Below, one piece after another: positions 27,773-40,381 of a DNA stretch of 64,000 nt. Numbering within the stretch: position 1 is the first letter of the stretch; each line of letters opens with the position of its first letter. A program made the translations under genes and the position numbers. The notes under the pieces are model-generated. The model searched no databases. It saw only the letters and a list, made by a program, of their open reading frames with translations, and was not told the DNA's origin. Source of the DNA: a bacterium (lineage in GTDB: Bacteria > Zixibacteria > MSB-5A5 > WJJR01). Location of the stretch: assembly GCA_021813505.1 (NCBI GenBank), contig JAKAKI010000006.1, forward strand, positions 1 through 64,000, read 5' to 3'.

Positions 27773-30349
27773 TCACAAACACGGATTCCGAGGCGCAGCC
27801 CCGTTCTTGAATGCGTAGTTGATCGCGGCCACAACGTCCGGCATATCGGTGGCACCGTCGGCGTTGAAATCACACCGTTCCACCGGGCAGACTGATTCCT
27901 GCACGCAGGGGACACCGCCCAACGCGCGGTCGATGATCGCGATCACGTCCATCACGTCGAACAGTCCGTCGGGCTTGGGGTCACCGTACCCGTCGCACGC
28001 ACACGATCCGTGCATGAAGTCCGCACGGACATACGAAGCGATTCGCTTCAGCTCGGCCACTGACGATGCCGAGTCGACCGGTGCGCAGATTCCCCATGGC
28101 GGCGGATGGTCAGACGATGGTAGGGGAGAGGTGAAAGTAAATTGGTCGGCGTCAGTGTTGTTAATGCTACGCGTGATTAGAAACTCGTCCCCGCTCAGAA
28201 ACCCTGAATCGTCTTTCCGGGCAAATGTCAGGAAATACATGATGGGCAGCGGACTGGTCATCGCATCGGCCTGGAACGCCGGATTGGGCGTCTCCGAGTA
28301 GTCGGCGTCGAATATCCACAGCCATTCCCTCGGACCTGACGCGGCCACATTACTGGCGACCGAGTAGATTGGTGGCCACCATCTCCCATCCACCATGCCG
28401 TCCGTGACATTGTTTTCCAGGTAGCCCACAGCGAGCCTACGTGGCGGATTCGCTTCCATATCCCATGCGGAAATCGGCGCACTCTTCGTGAAGTCCTGAT
28501 AAACATAACCACAGCTCGCGGAGTTGATAATGAAGGGTGCGAAACTGAACATCGCCGGCGGCTCGCAGAATCGCCGGCCATAGCGGTAAGCGTAAGACAC
28601 ATTCGGATCAGAGCCGTCAAAATTCCCCGATGGCGTTGTCGTGGCGAGTTTGATCACGACATCCTTGAGTCGTGCAGCCGGCACGCCCTGCTCTGGTTGC
28701 CGGCCTAACATATAGGCTGGGCTCATCCACCCGACCGAACCGCCGTACGCCTCGAATTGCAGGTCTCCGGATCCGCCCAACCAGGTGAATCGCTCGTGGC
28801 CGCAGAGGAGTGCAAAATCTCTCACGCCGGGATTCGCGTCTATCACTTTGACCATCAGCCCATCAATGATCGGATAGCTGTCGTCCCCGGACTGGTTTGC
28901 GAAATCGCTGAGCACATCCAGTCCGGTTGTCAGATCGCGTAGCGACCAAAGATAGCGAAGCCCGTCGTTGCTGATTCGGAATCCGATCCGATAATCGTGT
29001 CCGGTGGTCGCGCCGGACTGCATGATCAGTCCGAACGCCGAACCACTGGACCGGCCGAGTGTGTGCTCGGCATAGATCGTGTCCGCCCGCACAATCTCCG
29101 CATGCCCGGCGCCAACCGCCAGTGCCGCGATTACTTCCTGTGTATCCCCCGGGGCCATCGAGAAAGGACCCATATTGAGCATCATCCGCCGGTCGGCGGG
29201 ATGAGTATCGACCCAGCCGGTCCCCATCACCGGGTCGCCCGAAACCTGGTAATTTGTCGGCAGACCGGTGACAGGGTTAATTAGCGGTGCCCCATCCAGG
29301 CTAAGTCCCTTCATGTAATTGTACGTCTGGACCGCGAAGAGGGGGTCAGTGCCGTTAATGTACAGATTGAATGAAGTCATAGGCAGGTTGCGATGACGCG
29401 GGATCCACATTCCCCTTCGCTTATTCCACGCCGAACCCGTCTCCGACGGGACTATCGGCCCTTGGAGGACACTGAATCCCACTGTTGGTGGTTTGTCGCC
29501 ATAGACCTGGTCTGGCCCCGGGTTGTAGCAGTAACCCAGCGATAATGTTGTATCACAGCCGACCAGATCATCTGTGGCATCGCCCAAATCCGGATCTCCC
29601 CATAGCGCAAGGTAGGTACTGTCAAGCGAGTTGCCTCCTTTATTGATGACGGTGTACCAAAGATAGATCGTCTGCCCAAGCTCACATGGTTCCTTGCCGG
29701 CGAAAGCGTACAGTTGAATCTCGACACCGAGTGGCGCCGTGCTCCCACTGTTGTTCGTGTGGACCGCTGGGTCAGCGTCATTGAACACGGTCCAAACCGC
29801 CTGATCGCCAAGCAGGAACGGAATGCGAAATCCGTCGGCGCCGATAGAGTCGTTGCCAAGGAGGTCTTTCACCGCCGGTGCGCCCTGGTCAAACGGCCAC
29901 TGATCATAGTCGGGATTGCTCGCGCGGCTGTCGCCACGGTTGATCCTGTAAACGCGAAACTCTGCCCGGTCGGCCTGGAATGTTCCGTTCGCCATTGGGC
30001 CGGGCACAAATTCGTTGGAGTACTCGGCGACTGCCACCCGCGGTGCTCCGTCCACTTTCGCTCCAAGCCAGATTCCGGCAGCATACATCATTGTCTTGGC
30101 AGTCGGTCCCGGGAAGTGCAGACCATCGAATTTGCCCAACAGCGATGTCTTGTCGTGAGCAATCGATCCTGTGTTGTTGACGAACATCAGCAAAGTATTC
30201 GCGTCGAGATACGCCGTATTGTCCACGACCACGACATTGCTCGCCACCTGTCCATCGTTCCGCGCCATCCCAGAAGCGATCCCGCCACAAAGTATCACGG
30301 CGCCGGCGGCGACACCCAGCGCCCAACCGTTTCTCTTTACGAGCCTCAC
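27773..30349 (-). CDS. Very large secreted protein with dockerin-like C terminus, copy A
   Basis: An 858-residue exported protein of unknown function, starting at GTG 30349 (GGGGGTG upstream; homologous to the start of copy B). After a signal peptide (GWALGVAAGAVILCGGIASGMA) it has a repetitive-looking beta-rich body. Conserved pieces such as NTAYLDANTLLMFVNNTGSIA, YAAGIWLGAKVDGAPRVAVAEYSNEFVPGP and TVFNDADPAVHTNNSGSTAPLGVEIQLYAFA are shared with the tandem copy. The C terminus is a dockerin-like pair, CDGYGDPKPDGLFDVMDVIAII and CDFNADGATDMPDVVAAIN, ending RNPCL. Consensus promoter at 30434-30461. It lies convergent with surE, 43 bases away. Confidence 0.82.
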   Translation of the reverse strand: MRLVKRNGWALGVAAGAVILCGGIASGMARNDGQVASNVVVVDNTAYLDANTLLMFVNNTGSIAHDKTSLLGKFDGLHFPGPTAKTMMYAAGIWLGAKVDGAPRVAVAEYSNEFVPGPMANGTFQADRAEFRVYRINRGDSRASNPDYDQWPFDQGAPAVKDLLGNDSIGADGFRIPFLLGDQAVWTVFNDADPAVHTNNSGSTAPLGVEIQLYAFAGKEPCELGQTIYLWYTVINKGGNSLDSTYLALWGDPDLGDATDDLVGCDTTLSLGYCYNPGPDQVYGDKPPTVGFSVLQGPIVPSETGSAWNKRRGMWIPRHRNLPMTSFNLYINGTDPLFAVQTYNYMKGLSLDGAPLINPVTGLPTNYQVSGDPVMGTGWVDTHPADRRMMLNMGPFSMAPGDTQEVIAALAVGAGHAEIVRADTIYAEHTLGRSSGSAFGLIMQSGATTGHDYRIGFRISNDGLRYLWSLRDLTTGLDVLSDFANQSGDDSYPIIDGLMVKVIDANPGVRDFALLCGHERFTWLGGSGDLQFEAYGGSVGWMSPAYMLGRQPEQGVPAARLKDVVIKLATTTPSGNFDGSDPNVSYAYRYGRRFCEPPAMFSFAPFIINSASCGYVYQDFTKSAPISAWDMEANPPRRLAVGYLENNVTDGMVDGRWWPPIYSVASNVAASGPREWLWIFDADYSETPNPAFQADAMTSPLPIMYFLTFARKDDSGFLSGDEFLITRSINNTDADQFTFTSPLPSSDHPPPWGICAPVDSASSVAELKRIASYVRADFMHGSCACDGYGDPKPDGLFDVMDVIAIIDRALGGVPCVQESVCPVERCDFNADGATDMPDVVAAINYAFKNGAAPRNPCL

Positions 30350-30361
30350 GTTCACCCCCAA

Positions 30362-30847: not shown

Positions 30848-33397
30848 TCACAAACACGGATTCCGAGGCGCAGCCCCGTTCTTGAATGCGTAGTTGATCG
30901 CGGCCACAACGTCCGGCATATCGGTGGCACCGTCGGCGTTGAAATCACACCGATCGATAGGACATGACGATTCCTGATCTACTGGCGCGCCACCTAGAGC
31001 TTGATCGATGATCGCAAGGACGTCCAGTACACTAAACTCGCCATCTTGAATGGGATCCGCGAAGTGGGGGCAGTCGCACGCTGCCTGCGTAAATTCATTG
31101 CCAACGATGCCGACAATTCTCTTCAATTCGCCTACGGCAGACGTGGCATCGATTGGATCGCATACGCGGACAGTGTCTCGGGGTGGGGGAGCGGGAGGAA
31201 TGTAAAATGTGTCGGCATCCGTATTGGGGTTGGATCGGAAGATCATGAATTCGTCACCCGCGGCAAAACTGACATTGCCGTCACGCGCGACGGTCAGGAA
31301 ATACATAGCAGGGATGCCCGTGTAGTAAATAGAATTCCACTTGAGAATTTCGTGATTGGGCATTGTCGAATAATCCACGTTTAAGACCCAAAGCCACTCG
31401 CGAGGGCCGTCGGATGCCACGTTGTCCACGTCGTGTCCATTAGGTGGCCACCACTTCCCATCGACTGAACCGTGAATGGCGTTATTCTCGCAAAATGCAA
31501 TGGCAAGCCGCCGCGGCGGAACTGATTCTACATCCCAAGCGGAAAGTGGCACTGATCGCGAGAAATCCTGATAACGATAATCAGGGTGCGATGAGTTTAC
31601 AATGAATGGTGCGAATTCAGGTCTGGCAGGTGGCCCTGGTGACTGTAGGTACCTGTAGGCGTAGGAAACGTTCGGGTCTAGGGAGTCGGAAAGGCCACTC
31701 GAGTCTGTTGCCGCAAACTTCAGGAGGACGTTACGGAGTCGATACCGGTTAATGAGATTCCGCCCCCCCAGCGTGCCGCCCGGATCCGCCCATTCTATCG
31801 CGCCGTTGAAACTCTCTAATTGTAGCCCGTTGGCTCCCACCCACGTCAAGCGAGGCAAACCGTTGGCGACGCCGCAGTCTCGTATTCCTTTGAGTGGGGC
31901 ATAGACGCGAACCAGCATGCCGTCCACGGTGGGGAAATAAAAAGACTGACCTCTCCCAGAGGTAACCAGCATGTTTGTGACCAGATCTTTGAGTGACCAT
32001 ACATAGAATGAATCAGGGTCCGGCTGGAAACTGACCTGGTAGTCATGGCCCGTTACAGACAAGGGTGATGTGATAAAGGCGTTACCGGATCCATCCGAGT
32101 TGCCAGAAGTATGCGCAGCGAGGATTGTGCCCTTATGGTACAGAGTGTCTGCCTCGCCTGCAGCGACGATCAGGGCAGCAACCACTTCCTGAGTATCGCC
32201 CGGATTCATCGTAAGAGGCCCGGAACTGATCACGAATCTCCGGTCCCCGGAACCCTGGTCGAGCCAGCCAGACCCTGCAACAGGATCGCCCGAATACATG
32301 AATCTAGTAGACTGTCCAGTTGATGGATCTACAATCTGCGCCCCTTGCTGGTCGAGGCCCCTCATCAGGTTGTACGATTCGAGATCTTCGTAAGGATCCG
32401 ACCCAATTAGGTATTCGGTGAACGCAGTCATGGGCAGTTGCTGATGTCTTGGAATCCATATCCTCTGCCGAAAGTCCCAAGCGGACCCAGAAACTGACGG
32501 CACGATCGGTCCCTGTAATACGGTGATGCCGACAGACGGAGGCTTGTTACCGTAAATTTCATCTGGTCCGAGGTCAAAGCAATAGCCCAGCGAGAGTGAT
32601 GTGTCGCACCCCACAAGATCGTTTTGGGGCATGCCTATGTCTGGATCGGCCCACAGCGAAAGATAGGCACTGTCAAGGGTGTTCCCTCCCTTGTTGATGA
32701 TCCGATACTGCAAGGATATCGTTTGCCCAACCCCGCATGAAGTGTTGTTCGCATACGCGTAGAGTTGCACTTCCACACCCAGCGGCAAGCCACCACCAGC
32801 GTTCTGGATGTGCCTCGACGGATCGGCGTCATTGAAGACGGTCCAGAGTGCCTGTTCGCCCAACAGAAGGGGGATCTTGAATCCTCCCGGATCGAGCGAG
32901 TCGATTCCCAAATGATTCTTTACTGCCGGGGCACCTTGATCGAAGGGCCATTGATCGAAATCCGGATTGCTCGCACGTGAGTCGCCGCGCCTGATCTTGT
33001 AAACGTGGAAGGCCGGATTGTCCGGCTGAAAGGTCCCTCCCAGCATGGGACCCGGAGTATACTCCTCGGAGTATGATGCCCTGGTTACGGATACTTCGCC
33101 ATCGACCTTTGCACCAATCCACAAACCAGCCGCGTACATGAGAGTTTTGCTGCTAAGACGCGGAAAGTATAGCCCGGGGGCAAGGTACATGCCTGACGAA
33201 GCGTTCGCCAATACCCCCGTGTTTTTCACAAACATCAGCAGAGTATTCGCATCGAGATAGGACGTGTCGTCGACGATGACCACATTGTTCAGTCCTTGCT
33301 GGTCGCTCGGAGCCATCCCGAATGCGAGTCCCGTCCCTATTATCGTCAGGCCAATGGCGACACCAACTGCGCAACCGATTCTCGTCTCGATCTTCAT
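30848..33397 (-). CDS. Very large secreted protein with dockerin-like C terminus, copy B
   Basis: An 849-residue tandem paralogue of copy A, starting at ATG 33397 five bases after GGGGG. The signal peptide (RIGCAVGVAIGLTIIGTGLAFGMA) and the body are diverged but collinear: TSYLDANTLLMFVKNTGVLA, YAAGLWIGAKVDGEVSVTRASYSEEYTPGP and TVFNDADPSRHIQNAGGGLPLGVEVQLYAYA. The C-terminal dockerin-like half CDFNADGATDMPDVVAAIN...RNPCL is identical to copy A in protein and nearly so in DNA, although the preceding 70 residues differ. Function is unknown; surface-exposed or extracellular by inference. Its own promoter is at 33480-33507. Confidence 0.82.
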   Translation of the reverse strand: MKIETRIGCAVGVAIGLTIIGTGLAFGMAPSDQQGLNNVVIVDDTSYLDANTLLMFVKNTGVLANASSGMYLAPGLYFPRLSSKTLMYAAGLWIGAKVDGEVSVTRASYSEEYTPGPMLGGTFQPDNPAFHVYKIRRGDSRASNPDFDQWPFDQGAPAVKNHLGIDSLDPGGFKIPLLLGEQALWTVFNDADPSRHIQNAGGGLPLGVEVQLYAYANNTSCGVGQTISLQYRIINKGGNTLDSAYLSLWADPDIGMPQNDLVGCDTSLSLGYCFDLGPDEIYGNKPPSVGITVLQGPIVPSVSGSAWDFRQRIWIPRHQQLPMTAFTEYLIGSDPYEDLESYNLMRGLDQQGAQIVDPSTGQSTRFMYSGDPVAGSGWLDQGSGDRRFVISSGPLTMNPGDTQEVVAALIVAAGEADTLYHKGTILAAHTSGNSDGSGNAFITSPLSVTGHDYQVSFQPDPDSFYVWSLKDLVTNMLVTSGRGQSFYFPTVDGMLVRVYAPLKGIRDCGVANGLPRLTWVGANGLQLESFNGAIEWADPGGTLGGRNLINRYRLRNVLLKFAATDSSGLSDSLDPNVSYAYRYLQSPGPPARPEFAPFIVNSSHPDYRYQDFSRSVPLSAWDVESVPPRRLAIAFCENNAIHGSVDGKWWPPNGHDVDNVASDGPREWLWVLNVDYSTMPNHEILKWNSIYYTGIPAMYFLTVARDGNVSFAAGDEFMIFRSNPNTDADTFYIPPAPPPRDTVRVCDPIDATSAVGELKRIVGIVGNEFTQAACDCPHFADPIQDGEFSVLDVLAIIDQALGGAPVDQESSCPIDRCDFNADGATDMPDVVAAINYAFKNGAAPRNPCL

Positions 33398-33479
33398 GTC
33401 CACCCCCGATGAGGGAATGCCAGTCTTCTGAATTCAGGTTTCGAGGTACATCGCGGTGGCTGCACACCGCGGTGCTCTA

Positions 33480-33661: not shown

Positions 33662-33739
<78 letters not shown>

Positions 33740-34118
33740 TCAAAAAGACCCTGCGGCGGACATCAGTTCCGCCGTTTTCATTGGTGGGTTTTCCACGAGA
33801 CAAACCGATGAAGGCGTCCCTGCCGCCCCCCTCACCCCCGGCCCCTCTCCCAAAAACGGGAGAGGGGAGATCCCTCCCGACCGGCCAACCAGACGGCCGC
33901 ACGGCGTGTGTCCCCCGCCCGAGTGACGCCGAGGGATTGCATTCTGCTGATTTGGCGAGACTCGTGACGGGCGCAACTCGGCTCCCCTCTCCCTCTGGGA
34001 GAGGGGTTGGGGGTGAGGGCTCTCCGGCGCGCTGGGCCCCGTCCCCGCTCATATAACCAACCATTTCTGTCGAAATAACTTATGAGGCCCGCCCCGGCGG
34101 GACTCGCAGGGGAAACGT
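33740..34118. repeat. Inverted repeat pair (CCCCTCACCCCC...CTCTCCC family)
   Basis: CCCCCTCACCCCCGGCCCCT CTCCC (33827-33851) followed by GGGAGAGGGGA, and then CTCCCCTCTCCC...GGGAGAGGGGTTGGGGGTGA at 33982-34018, make two mirrored copies about 130 bases apart. This family is widespread in GC-rich genomes. No gene is supported between tRNA-Pro and pilT. Confidence 0.7.
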
Positions 34119-35198
34119 ATGCCTCAGATCGATGAAATCCTGCGCCACATGAAGGACTTGGACGCGTCCGACGTGCATCTTGTGACCGGCGCGCCTGTCA
34201 CATTTCGCATTCTGGGCGACCTGATCCCCGCGAATGAACATCCGTTGTCCCGGCAAGAAATCGAGCTGCTCCTATACGAGATTCTCACCTCGGCGCAGAT
34301 CGAGAATTTCGAACACAATTGGGACCTCGACACGGCCTACACCATCACCGGCTACGCCCGTTTCCGCGTTAGCTGCTTCCAGCACCATCGTGGACCCGGC
34401 GCGGTTATGCGCCTGATCCCCGAGGACCCGCCGACTCTGGCCAGTCTCGGTTTTCCCGAAATCGTCACGCGCCTCGCTGAGACACAGCGCGGTCTGATTC
34501 TGATGACCGGCCCGACCAACTCCGGCAAAACCACCACACTCGCCGCAATGGTCAATCATCTGAACGAAACCCAGAAGAAACACATCATCACGCTGGAAGA
34601 CCCGTTGGAGTTTGTGCACAAGAACAAACGGTGCCTCATCACCCAGCGCCAGGTGGGCGCGCATTCCCACGACTTCGCCACCGCCCTGCGCGCCGCATTG
34701 CGCCAGGACCCCAATGTGATCATGGTGGGGGAGATGCGCGACCTGGAAACGATCCATCTCGCGCTCACTGCCGCCGAGCTTGGCCTGTGTGTCTTCGGCA
34801 CGCTGCACACAAAGAGCGCCGCGCAGACGGTCAACCGCGTGATCGACGCGTTCCCCTACGAACAGCAATCGCAAATCCGCACCCTCCTCTCGGAATCGCT
34901 GCGCGGCATCATGTCGCAGCAATTGGTGAAACGTGCCGATGGACGGGGACGGGTGGCGGCCCTGGAGATTTTGATCAACACGCCGGCCGTGGGATTCATG
35001 ATCCGCGAGGGGAAGACGCACCAGATTCCTTCGACGCTCCAAACCGGCCGCAAGGAAGGCATGCAACTCATGGAACAACATCTCGCGCAATTGTTCGAGC
35101 AGGGCATCATTACGCGCGAGGCCGCAGTCTCCGCCTCCCCCAATCCAAACCTGATGGGCGCCGCCGCCACCGGCGCAGTGCCGGAGCCCGTCGCATGA
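34119..35198 (+). CDS. pilT: Twitching-motility ATPase PilT
   Basis: A 359-residue hexameric AAA+ motor that retracts type IV pili at the inner-membrane base. The N-terminal domain has DASDVHLVTGAPVTFRI. The Walker A is MTGPTNSGKTTTLAAMVNHLN, the Asp box HIITLEDPLEFVH, the Walker B region DPNVIMVGEMRDLETI, and the His box FGTLHTKSAAQTVNRVIDAFP. The AIRNLIRE-type C-terminal motif is present in variant form (FMIREGKTHQIPSTLQTGRKEGMQLMEQ). The stop overlaps the next start (ATGA), so both proteins are translationally coupled. No pilin genes lie in the window. Confidence 0.93.
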   Translation: MPQIDEILRHMKDLDASDVHLVTGAPVTFRILGDLIPANEHPLSRQEIELLLYEILTSAQIENFEHNWDLDTAYTITGYARFRVSCFQHHRGPGAVMRLIPEDPPTLASLGFPEIVTRLAETQRGLILMTGPTNSGKTTTLAAMVNHLNETQKKHIITLEDPLEFVHKNKRCLITQRQVGAHSHDFATALRAALRQDPNVIMVGEMRDLETIHLALTAAELGLCVFGTLHTKSAAQTVNRVIDAFPYEQQSQIRTLLSESLRGIMSQQLVKRADGRGRVAALEILINTPAVGFMIREGKTHQIPSTLQTGRKEGMQLMEQHLAQLFEQGIITREAAVSASPNPNLMGAAATGAVPEPVA

Positions 35199-37225
35199 GA
35201 AAGAAGGGGCGCCTCGATGCCATTCTCACGCGCCGCGGATGGGTCACCGAGGCCCAGATTGTCAGCGCACTCGAAGCGCAACGCCGCACCGGCGGCCGAT
35301 TCGGCTCGATCCTGGTCAATCTCGGTGTGATCACCGAAACGCAGCTCGCCGAGGCGCTGGCCGAGCAGTACAGCACGCCCCATTGGGATCCCCTGACTGC
35401 AGTGGTGGAAACCGCCGCGCTCAAACTCTTCCCCGAACAATGGGTGCGCCAGAAGAGGTTCCTGCCGCTGGCGTTCGATCCCACACGCAAGGCGTTGGAG
35501 ATTGCGGTGACCGATCCCGGCAACATGGCGCTCATTGATGAAATCCGTTTCCGCGCCAAGGCCAAGACCGTCATCGTCGCGGTCGCCCCGGATATTTCAT
35601 TGCGCCGCCTCTGGGATAAATTCTACAGTGCCGCAGGAACTGCCGAATCCGGCGGCGGCACGTCGCAACAGTCGCGGCCAACCGATCGTCTCGGAATCGA
35701 GTTTAGCTTCGCCATCGAATCCCAGCCTCAGCATGAGCACGAACTGCAGCCGGCGGCACGCGTGCTCTTGTGGCTGACGCAGCCGTTTGTCGCGAAACTG
35801 CTGAAGTCTCTCCTGGAAGTGGAGCGTTGCCTCGTCGCCCATTGGGACGGGGAGAGCATGCCGCAGAAGGAGTGGGACTATCTCATTTACGACGCCGACA
35901 GCGCCGCCGCTTCGCCCGAGGCGATGGCAAAGCTCAAGCGCGCCTGTCCCAAGATTCAATTCGTCCCCAAACCGGCGTGGACCACGTCGATTCTCCGTTC
36001 GCCGCTCTCGTATGAGCAACTGCGCGATGGGTACACCCATCTCGCCGGGTATGCCGGAAAGCTCGCCAAGCTCTCGACGCACGACCACCGTCTGCCGCGT
36101 TATGCTCACGCACTCGCGCGCCTTCTGCCAATGACCGCGTTTGAGATCGACACGCTGGTTGTTGCATGTGAACTCGTGCCGCTGGTATCGTTGTCGCCGC
36201 GCTCGGATGAAGAATGGGATGGCGTCGCGCAGGAACTCTGCTGTCCGTATCCGGTGATCGAAATCCTCCGCGTCGTCGGAAAACCATTTGATTCGCTCGG
36301 TGTGAAACCCGGCCAGTCTATGCCTGGCGCGCCGCTCGGAGCGCGCGCGTTGGCCGTGCTCCTGGCGTATCTCAGAATGCTCGAGGCCCAGCCGGTCAAT
36401 TCCATCGATGCGATGAACCAGCTCGCCTTAAACCTGCGCAGCGAATCGGGAAAACAACTTGATCCCCATGTCGTGGAGGCATTGCTCAGTCTGGTTCGCG
36501 AGGAAGTGTTGGAAGGGTACCTGCCTCCCGGCCCGTCCGAGGTCATGCTGGTGGCCGACCGTCCCATCGAGTGGAATCATCTAGTCATGCAACTAGAAAA
36601 CGAAGGCTGGCGCGTCGTTACCGCTGGCGGCCCTGCTGAGGCCCGCCGTCTCGCCGACCGCCGCCGCCCCGATGTCGTGGTCTGGGCCGCATCCGGAGCG
36701 CTCGAGTGGGTCCACTGGCAACGCAAGGCCCTTCCCGGAATCGCCAATTTCCTGATCCTCGATGACCCCGACACGCAATTATCGCGCACCGCTCTCGGCG
36801 CCGGGTTCGAAGATGTCTGGAGTGGCGACTGGGATGCCGGTATCGCCGCAGAAAAACTCCGCCGCGCTGCTGCGCGTCAGCCGAAGGCCCCCTCGAAGGA
36901 CGGCGTGGTCTCCGGCTCGCTCTCGCAGTTCAGCTTCATCGACCTCGTGCAAATCCTCTCGGCCGGGGCGCGTTCGGTGCGCATCGATGTCAGCAATGGC
37001 GTTCAGACCGGGCAGGTCGTTCTCTGGCAGGGCCTGATCAAGTTCGCGCACACCGACCAATGCGATGGCGAAAACGCCGTCTACGAAATCCTCAACTGGA
37101 CCGATGGCGCCTTCACGATGGTCCCCATCACCGCACCGCCCGAATCGAACTGCCGGCTGTCCAACAACGCCATGCTGCTCGAAGGCTGCCGCCTCATCGA
37201 CGAGCGCAGGCGCGTCACGGTCTGA
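35195..37225 (+). CDS. Multidomain pilus-associated regulator: GspE-N, degenerate HD-GYP, REC-like, PATAN/DUF4388
   Basis: A 676-residue protein whose ATG overlaps the pilT stop. Residues 1-145 match the GspE/PilB N-terminal domain (ILTRRGWVTEAQIVSALEAQRRTGGRFGSILVNLGVI). Residues 185-258 look like a receiver without phosphorylation site. Residues 270-440 resemble HD-GYP (PLGARALAVLLAYLRMLEAQPV...GKQLDPHVVEALL), but the HD dyad is replaced (VVACELVPLV) and the GYP loop reads VGKPFDSLGV. Residues 447-555 form a second receiver-like domain. Residues 572-676 are PATAN/DUF4388 (VSGSLSQFSFIDLVQILSAGARSVRIDV...GLIKFAHTD). By context it probably binds or regulates the pilus motor; it lacks any ATPase motif. 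Confidence 0.85.
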   Translation: MRKKGRLDAILTRRGWVTEAQIVSALEAQRRTGGRFGSILVNLGVITETQLAEALAEQYSTPHWDPLTAVVETAALKLFPEQWVRQKRFLPLAFDPTRKALEIAVTDPGNMALIDEIRFRAKAKTVIVAVAPDISLRRLWDKFYSAAGTAESGGGTSQQSRPTDRLGIEFSFAIESQPQHEHELQPAARVLLWLTQPFVAKLLKSLLEVERCLVAHWDGESMPQKEWDYLIYDADSAAASPEAMAKLKRACPKIQFVPKPAWTTSILRSPLSYEQLRDGYTHLAGYAGKLAKLSTHDHRLPRYAHALARLLPMTAFEIDTLVVACELVPLVSLSPRSDEEWDGVAQELCCPYPVIEILRVVGKPFDSLGVKPGQSMPGAPLGARALAVLLAYLRMLEAQPVNSIDAMNQLALNLRSESGKQLDPHVVEALLSLVREEVLEGYLPPGPSEVMLVADRPIEWNHLVMQLENEGWRVVTAGGPAEARRLADRRRPDVVVWAASGALEWVHWQRKALPGIANFLILDDPDTQLSRTALGAGFEDVWSGDWDAGIAAEKLRRAAARQPKAPSKDGVVSGSLSQFSFIDLVQILSAGARSVRIDVSNGVQTGQVVLWQGLIKFAHTDQCDGENAVYEILNWTDGAFTMVPITAPPESNCRLSNNAMLLEGCRLIDERRRVTV

Positions 37226-39763: not shown

Positions 39764-40381
39764 GGCCGCCCCCGCGTGGGCGCCCGATGGCGCGCACACA
39801 TGAAACGGGTGGCCACTTGGGCCGCCACCACGAACTGTTGCCCGCGCAAATGTGGCGCGGCCGCCCTCGGCCGCGTTTCGCCTGCAGGATACCGGTGTTA
39901 CTTCTTCAGCCACGCCGGGTGCCCCACCCTCCGGGTGGGTTGAAAACCCCCAGCATCTGGTGACAGGAGCGCGGACAGGAGTGGGCGCCACTAAGAGAAG
40001 AGAACTTCCATGACCATGAGTGGGGCAGACATTCTTGTCTGCCCGGTTTTTCAACCCACCCTCCGCGTGGGGCGCCGAGGCTACCGAGTGGATCTGTTCA
40101 GGCAAGCGTGTCGTGGGAGGGCGAGGCTCCGGCCGAGCCATGTTTCGGCGCGCGGAATCGTTCGTTGGTGGGCGTGGAGATTCCGCGCGGAGCCATGGCT
40201 CGGCAGGAGCCTCGCCCTCCCGATGGAACCTCGGTGAACTCCAAGACATTGTGGCTCCTCGTACCCCGCCGCCACCATCTCATCGGCAATCCGCCAAAAT
40301 GAACACGAAATTCATCTTGCGATTTCCCCGGAACACACGTATAACGAAACTGTTTAGCAGGGGGAGGGGGCAACCAGTCAC
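39764..40381. other. Repeat-filled intergenic region
   Basis: Contains GGCGCGGCCGCCCTCGGCCG (39853-39872), and an inverted pair GCCCCACCCTCCGGGTGGGT...TTGAAAA (39919-39945) with TTTTTCAACCCACCCTCCGC (40047-40066). Also present are GCAGACATTCTTGTCTGC (40025-40042) and the REPIN-like doublet at 40115-40221. No gene is supported. Confidence 0.65.
40115..40221. repeat. REPIN-like doublet, complete
   Basis: GGGAGGGCGAGGCTCCGGCC GAGCCATG at the left is mirrored by CATGGCTCGGCAGGAGCCTC plus GCCCTCCC at the right. The inner arms GGCGCGCGGAAT and ATTCCGCGCGG extend the inverted repeat. It is the same family as 26643. Confidence 0.85.

Follow-up and report, generated by a model that had tools for sequence, protein, structure and literature searches.

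The forward strand of the window (the whole 64,000-nucleotide stretch of Zixibacteria DNA analysed here) carries two translationally coupled genes, one encoding a divergent third PilT paralogue, PilT3, and the other a 676-aa protein that joins an MshEN domain, two degenerate receivers and a catalytically dead HD-GYP domain to a C-terminal PATAN/DUF4388 domain. We favour, at about even confidence, an explanation in which the pair forms a two-gene module made of a nucleotide-responsive PATAN adaptor and an accessory retraction ATPase. The prediction first made from the sequence of the window also held that the larger protein controls retraction; we likewise infer such control, with another domain as the candidate sensor and another kind of PilT as the partner.

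The pilT3 locus and its distribution in the phylum

The two genes lie on the + strand at 34119..35198 (pilT3, 359 aa) and 35195..37225 (676 aa) and, as had been noticed originally, the second begins within the pilT stop codon: its ATG and the end of pilT overlap by four bases (gtcgcATGA) in the window sequence. A contig from a Candidatus Zixiibacteriota groundwater MAG, of a congener, encodes a homologue of the 676-aa protein with 91% identity, and the nucleotide differences number 48, 28 and 180 at codon positions 1, 2 and 3. Since the changes fall mostly at the third position, the frame at 35195-37225 is a real, selected gene, and it encodes a real, conserved protein. A promoter scan upstream of pilT3 gave no signal above shuffles.

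The surroundings of the pair hold several other features. A tRNA-Pro (CGG) is found at 33663-33739 (+), between pilT3 and the genes of two large paralogous proteins (27773-30361 and 30848-33403, both on the - strand) with a common dockerin-like C-terminal tail, DFNADGATDMPDVVAAINYAFKNGAAPRNPCL. Two long imperfect palindromes, apparently intergenic, at 33829-34019 (24-nt arms, 92% complementary) and 40115-40221 (38-nt arms, 89% complementary), resemble dispersed repetitive elements.

PilT3 belongs to the PilT/PilU family (TIGR01420, 458.7 bits; cut-off 319.1), although it is not the usual member. In a tree of 64 PilTs, from which PilU sequences were left out, the 15 included PilTs that adjoin a gene of the 676-aa family form one clade (support 100/98), apart from the clade of pil-cluster PilTs (100/100) and from the remaining PilTs. 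All 15 carry Leu in place of the first HIS-box His (GLCVFGTLHT in the window), whereas both HIS-box histidines are present in 49/49 other PilTs, and Asn as the fourth Walker A residue (GPTNSGK), which is Gly in 48 of the 49. The two HIS-box histidines of PilB lie on either side of an inter-subunit Thr, and the second of them contacts the gamma-phosphate (PMC5424180). That second His, like the Walker A Lys and the Walker B Glu, is present in 15/15 of the adjacent PilTs. ATP hydrolysis by PilT3 is therefore probably retained, with an altered inter-subunit coupling. Some divergent PilTs outside the three main clades (L141 and L148 of G036 and G057, L151 of G007, L157 of G052) retain the first HIS-box histidine.

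The main type IV pilus cluster of the genome is located on a different contig (G000:C66) and encodes MglA/MglB-like proteins, PilB, PilT and PilC (names assigned from reading the sequences of the neighbouring genes); pilT3 and its partner lie away from it. The PilT of the original prediction had been taken as the pilus retraction motor. The tree and the genome survey described below reject a housekeeping PilT at this locus: the main PilT accompanies pilB and pilC on the other contig, and the partner of the 676-aa protein is a divergent third PilT.

A contig search with the single 676-aa protein matched only one congener and was replaced by whole-genome profile searches (E <= 1e-40). Of 133 Zixibacteria genomes covered, with the search centred on the lineage of the window, 89 have the family. 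PilT hits were then counted in 35 genomes that we picked; as this sample is not random, the numbers are to be read as a strong association. Three or four PilTs are present in each of the 15 genomes in which one of them immediately precedes the family gene. Where the full-length family gene is unlinked, the number is two (13/13 genomes), and in genomes without the family gene it is one or two. Within these 35 genomes, no PilT of the adjacent clade was found away from a family gene. The predicted link to pilT extends to other genomes: in all 14 linked loci that allowed the pilT stop to be located (14/14), the two genes are separated by -4 to +1 nt.

At least 13 genomes keep the partner gene and have no PilT3, so that PilT3 cannot be the only target of the partner. 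Genes for a divIC-like protein, recO and glyS upstream, and a sigma-factor gene downstream, are common to one linked locus (L044) and two unlinked ones (L052, L063); the same flanking genes at linked and unlinked loci suggest that pilT3 was lost in some lineages. In G003, a genome of the same family as the window (L049, G003:C31), PilT3 and partner both fall in a distant subfamily, while the core PilT groups with its own family. PilT3 and its partner thus move together; the pair may have been replaced as a unit, may have been kept together or may reflect ancient paralogy.

Domain layout and the loss of catalytic sites

Profile matches and the AlphaFold model give the order MshEN, receiver-like, dead HD-GYP, receiver-like and PATAN/DUF4388. 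The full-length model (pLDDT 79.6, pTM 0.43) is confident inside the domains and not in their arrangement. From the single sequence, only the two ends exceed Pfam cut-offs: MshEN at residues 60-149 (1.9e-13) and DUF4388 at 573-671 (PF14332, 1.1e-19; 71.1 bits, cut-off 25), while the decay of the two receiver-like stretches and of the HD-GYP-like middle is too advanced for such detection. In an alignment of 31 relatives (A1), MshEN and DUF4388 are found in 31/31 members, Response_reg in 25/31 and HD in 17/31, and the family profile finds solved MshEN and HD-GYP structures and, over two stretches, receivers. The survey of other genomes and the profile searches thus bear out the proposed PATAN module, the two receiver-like regions and the HD-GYP similarity.

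The N-terminal domain (residues 1-149, 35195..35641, +) had been described as of the GspE/PilB type without the ATPase. The ATPase is indeed absent and the domain present, but it is more exactly an MshEN domain, which had been missed. An NCBIfam c-di-GMP motif of 53 residues (NF053729) covers residues 9-58 (4.2e-17; 61.7 bits, cut-off 38), and the modelled fold matches 5htl_B (Foldseek E 3.4e-8, TMt 0.69). A low-confidence linker follows (residues 150-187, 35642..35755, +), with pLDDT under 50 over 148-184.

Both receiver-like domains keep the fold, by family profile and Foldseek, and have largely lost the phosphorylation site. In the first (residues 188-261, 35756..35977, +; receiver matches at profile positions 185-303), the acidic pair is lost (T195, Q196), although D233, at or next to the acceptor position, is conserved in 8/8 members of the subfamily of the window. 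The second (residues 448-562, 36536..36880, +) has no acceptor Asp and carries Ala498 at that site. The claim that both lack phosphorylation residues was therefore right for the second and for the acidic pair of the first, and slightly too strong in view of D233.

Because Foldseek results for the whole model were dominated by MshEN and receiver matches, the middle domain (residues 262-446, 35978..36532, +) was also folded separately. The model of this fragment reached a pTM of 0.84 and its top matches were all HD-GYP proteins (PA4781, DvhD and PmGH) with probability 1.00, at E 2.7e-3 to 2e-2 and a modest TMq of 0.55-0.59. A profile of the middle domain alone (A2) matched the structures of DvhD, V-cGAP3, PmGH and PA4781 (entries matched by A2/A3: 9rbz, 5z7c, 4mcw and 4r8z). 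Chance similarity is an unlikely source of this assignment, since a profile of only the eight closest sequences, the subfamily of the window (A3), still ranks DvhD first (E 2.5e-4). The fold is thus present and, as originally proposed, the catalytic residues are not: the HD pair reads V328-P329, with Pro for the Asp in 8/8 subfamily members, the last Asp metal ligand is lost and GYP is absent. The distant relatives, on the other hand, keep the first His, the HD and the later Asp in 21-22 of 23 sequences, with GYP again absent.

The protein ends with the PATAN/DUF4388 domain (residues 573-671, 36911..37207, +). Another PATAN protein, of 408 aa, is encoded in the main pil cluster (L069:4129-5355, G000:C66), and a canonical tandem c-di-GMP motif with RLG, RLGQVLARKGLLTAEDLDKALKRH-KSSGK-RLGQVLIENGMLDRSVVLDALRAQ, is inserted in its DUF4388/PATAN domain and splits it. 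The 'alpha-helical insertion' of PATAN domains may be an MshEN-type c-di-GMP site, judging from this sequence.

The candidate ligand and competing explanations

MshEN is a known c-di-GMP receptor fold. Its motif I, RLDAILTRRGWVTEAQIVSALEAQ, occupies residues 6-29 of the 676-aa protein and motif II, RFGSILVNLGVITETQLAEALAEQ, residues 35-58. Compared with the canonical arrangement (two 24-residue RLGxx...Q motifs with a 5-residue spacer and both Gly), the spacing and the R/L/L/Q residues are kept and the motif I Gly is lost. Across the 31 sequences, the ligand residues R6, L11, L26, Q29, L51 and L55 are invariant and L7, G37 and Q58 almost so; the third residue of motif I, where known binders carry Gly, is Asp (Asp8) in 31/31. 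In Vibrio MshE, mutation of this Gly abolishes c-di-GMP binding, and the XpsE MshEN domain lost binding through changes of this kind (PMC5013675); in a re-engineered PilF GSPII-A domain, replacing the motif-II Gly by Ala made binding weaker, by a factor of 10 to 30 according to which construct serves as the comparison (PMC12002112). The pattern of conservation suggests that the domain likely binds some ligand, while c-di-GMP is not assured and stays an unproven candidate, given the invariant Asp8 and the loss of binding in the Gly mutants of MshE.

Mechanistically, PilT3 would be a divergent ATPase of the retraction type with an accessory role, and the mRNA that encodes it would also yield a translationally coupled cytoplasmic adaptor. 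The MshEN domain of the adaptor would bind a cyclic dinucleotide, most likely c-di-GMP and, in view of Asp8, possibly another one. Binding would rearrange the MshEN, pseudo-receiver and pseudo-HD-GYP modules, the last two kinds serving, without catalysis or phosphate acceptance, as allosteric or dimerisation scaffolds, and would expose or hide the PATAN domain, which would dock on the pilus motor (PilT3 and, through PilT3, the PilT/PilC platform) and change retraction. We infer the ligand, the physical contact with the binding partner and the effect on retraction, with its direction. Counting for this explanation are the presence of MshEN and DUF4388 in all members, the invariant ligand residues, the strict pairing and joint movement of the two genes and, in the same genome, the PilB-PilT-PilC cluster with MglA/MglB-like genes as well as GGDEF domains; counting against it are Asp8 in 31/31, the genomes that have the partner and no PilT3, and the position of the pair outside the main pil cluster. 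Moreover, the known PATAN contacts are with PilB and not PilT: PATAN regulators bind PilB in Synechocystis (cited in PMC10519157, PMC7690835). In Xanthomonas, an RpfG-GGDEF-PilZ complex contacts PilT/PilU (PMC3749722). Both cases serve as functional precedents, not as proof.

As for which domain would sense the nucleotide, the original prediction assigned c-di-GMP sensing to the non-catalytic HD-GYP. This would resemble DvhD, the closest solved match by sequence and a non-catalytic HD-GYP that acts as a c-di-GMP receptor (PMC13090378), yet the nucleotide contacts of DvhD, R650, Y652 and R653 (RxYR; PMC13090378), have no counterpart in the profile alignments, be it of the family or of the subfamily of the window, which lacks even the H and D that distant relatives keep. 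We consider this version very improbable and rejected the HD-GYP as the main c-di-GMP sensor; the N-terminal MshEN domain is a more likely candidate than the HD-GYP, which has lost its metal ligands, GYP and RxYR. It is also conceivable, although doubtful in our judgement, that no nucleotide is sensed and that the protein is a structural adaptor linking PilT3 to the pilus base or the cell pole. The invariant Asp at a position essential in MshE, the loss of binding in XpsE and the dead HD-GYP and receiver sites of the subfamily, a trend towards loss of ligand sites, would all fit such a scaffold; a purely structural domain, however, would not obviously need invariant R6, Q29, L26, L51 and L55, and the motif II Gly is retained in 30/31 members. 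Finally, the pair could serve another PilT-like task, such as DNA uptake or the control of a pseudopilus or secretion ATPase, instead of twitching retraction. PilT3 is divergent, with a changed HIS box and a gene outside the pil cluster, and two core PilTs remain in these genomes that could carry out retraction; nevertheless, the literature often associates PATAN and MshEN domains with the control of type IV pili or of type II secretion, and PilT3 scores above the PilT/PilU cut-off, which leaves this task unlikely to our minds.

A more speculative and improbable idea is that the acidic residue in motif I switches ligand specificity, its carboxylate accepting the adenine N6 amine, so that the family, with Asp in one half-site and Gly in the other, would read 3',3'-cGAMP and short MshEN-REC-PATAN paralogues, acidic in both motifs, c-di-AMP. 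If true, this would define a c-di-AMP/cGAMP branch of the MshEN family that controls pili. Shorter MshEN-REC-DUF4388 paralogues exist as open frames of 429-460 aa (L159, L160, L161, L162 and L165), in which both essential Gly are replaced, by Asp (motif I) and Glu (motif II), and the other motif residues are largely kept. A 592-aa paralogue in the genome of the window (L056:8776-10551:-, G000:C85) has an N-terminal MshEN, also with RLD, a C-terminal DUF4388 and no adjoining pilT. That genome encodes four GGDEF stretches that could make c-di-GMP, and a c-di-AMP synthase domain is found in 11/11 genomes checked, so both nucleotides may be available in the cell. A Ser signature marks Hypr-type (cGAMP) GGDEF domains; it is absent from the three GGDEF stretches, of the four, that were read (GHETGN, GHQAGD and a degenerate GYFYGD).

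Relation to known pilus regulators

The regulation of retraction ATPases is much less clear than that of PilB, and PilT3 with its coupled putative nucleotide-sensor/PATAN protein would provide a compact system of two genes in which the control of pilus retraction by signals can be studied. The finding moreover delimits a PilT clade by its changed HIS box, together with an MshEN subfamily in which an acidic substitution is invariant and tests how this common domain chooses its ligand. Each part is known; what looks new is the pairing, along with the PilT clade and the acidic variant of MshEN. In the open-licence literature searched, we found no description of the pairing, nor of PATAN and MshEN in one protein, which is weak evidence for novelty.

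The cyanobacterial PATAN-REC regulators (PixG, PixE, LsiR, TaxP2 and PilG) likewise combine PATAN with receiver-type domains and act, or are thought to act, on the pilus motor. Here, however, PATAN is C-terminal and accompanied by decayed receivers and by additional MshEN and HD-GYP modules, and the gene is translationally coupled to that of a PilT, whereas the cyanobacterial proteins bind PilB. With the MshEN domains of MshE, PilB, NfrB and PilF, the 676-aa protein has in common the fold and nearly all motif residues, but it lacks an ATPase or glycosyltransferase output and carries Asp for the essential Gly of motif I. DvhD of Desulfovibrio (9rbz), to which the middle domain is closest among solved structures in the profile comparisons, is also a catalytically dead HD-GYP, yet its RxYR contacts are missing here. 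In the Xanthomonas complex, REC, HD-GYP and c-di-GMP-type proteins act on retraction ATPases by protein contact, as would be the case in our proposal, although several proteins are involved there and only one here, whose gene is paired with that of a PilT of its own. Accessory retraction ATPases such as PilU and PilT2 are likewise extra PilT paralogues beside the main motor; PilT3 differs in forming a separate clade within these genomes (PilU not being in the tree), in its HIS-box Leu and in having a dedicated regulator gene.
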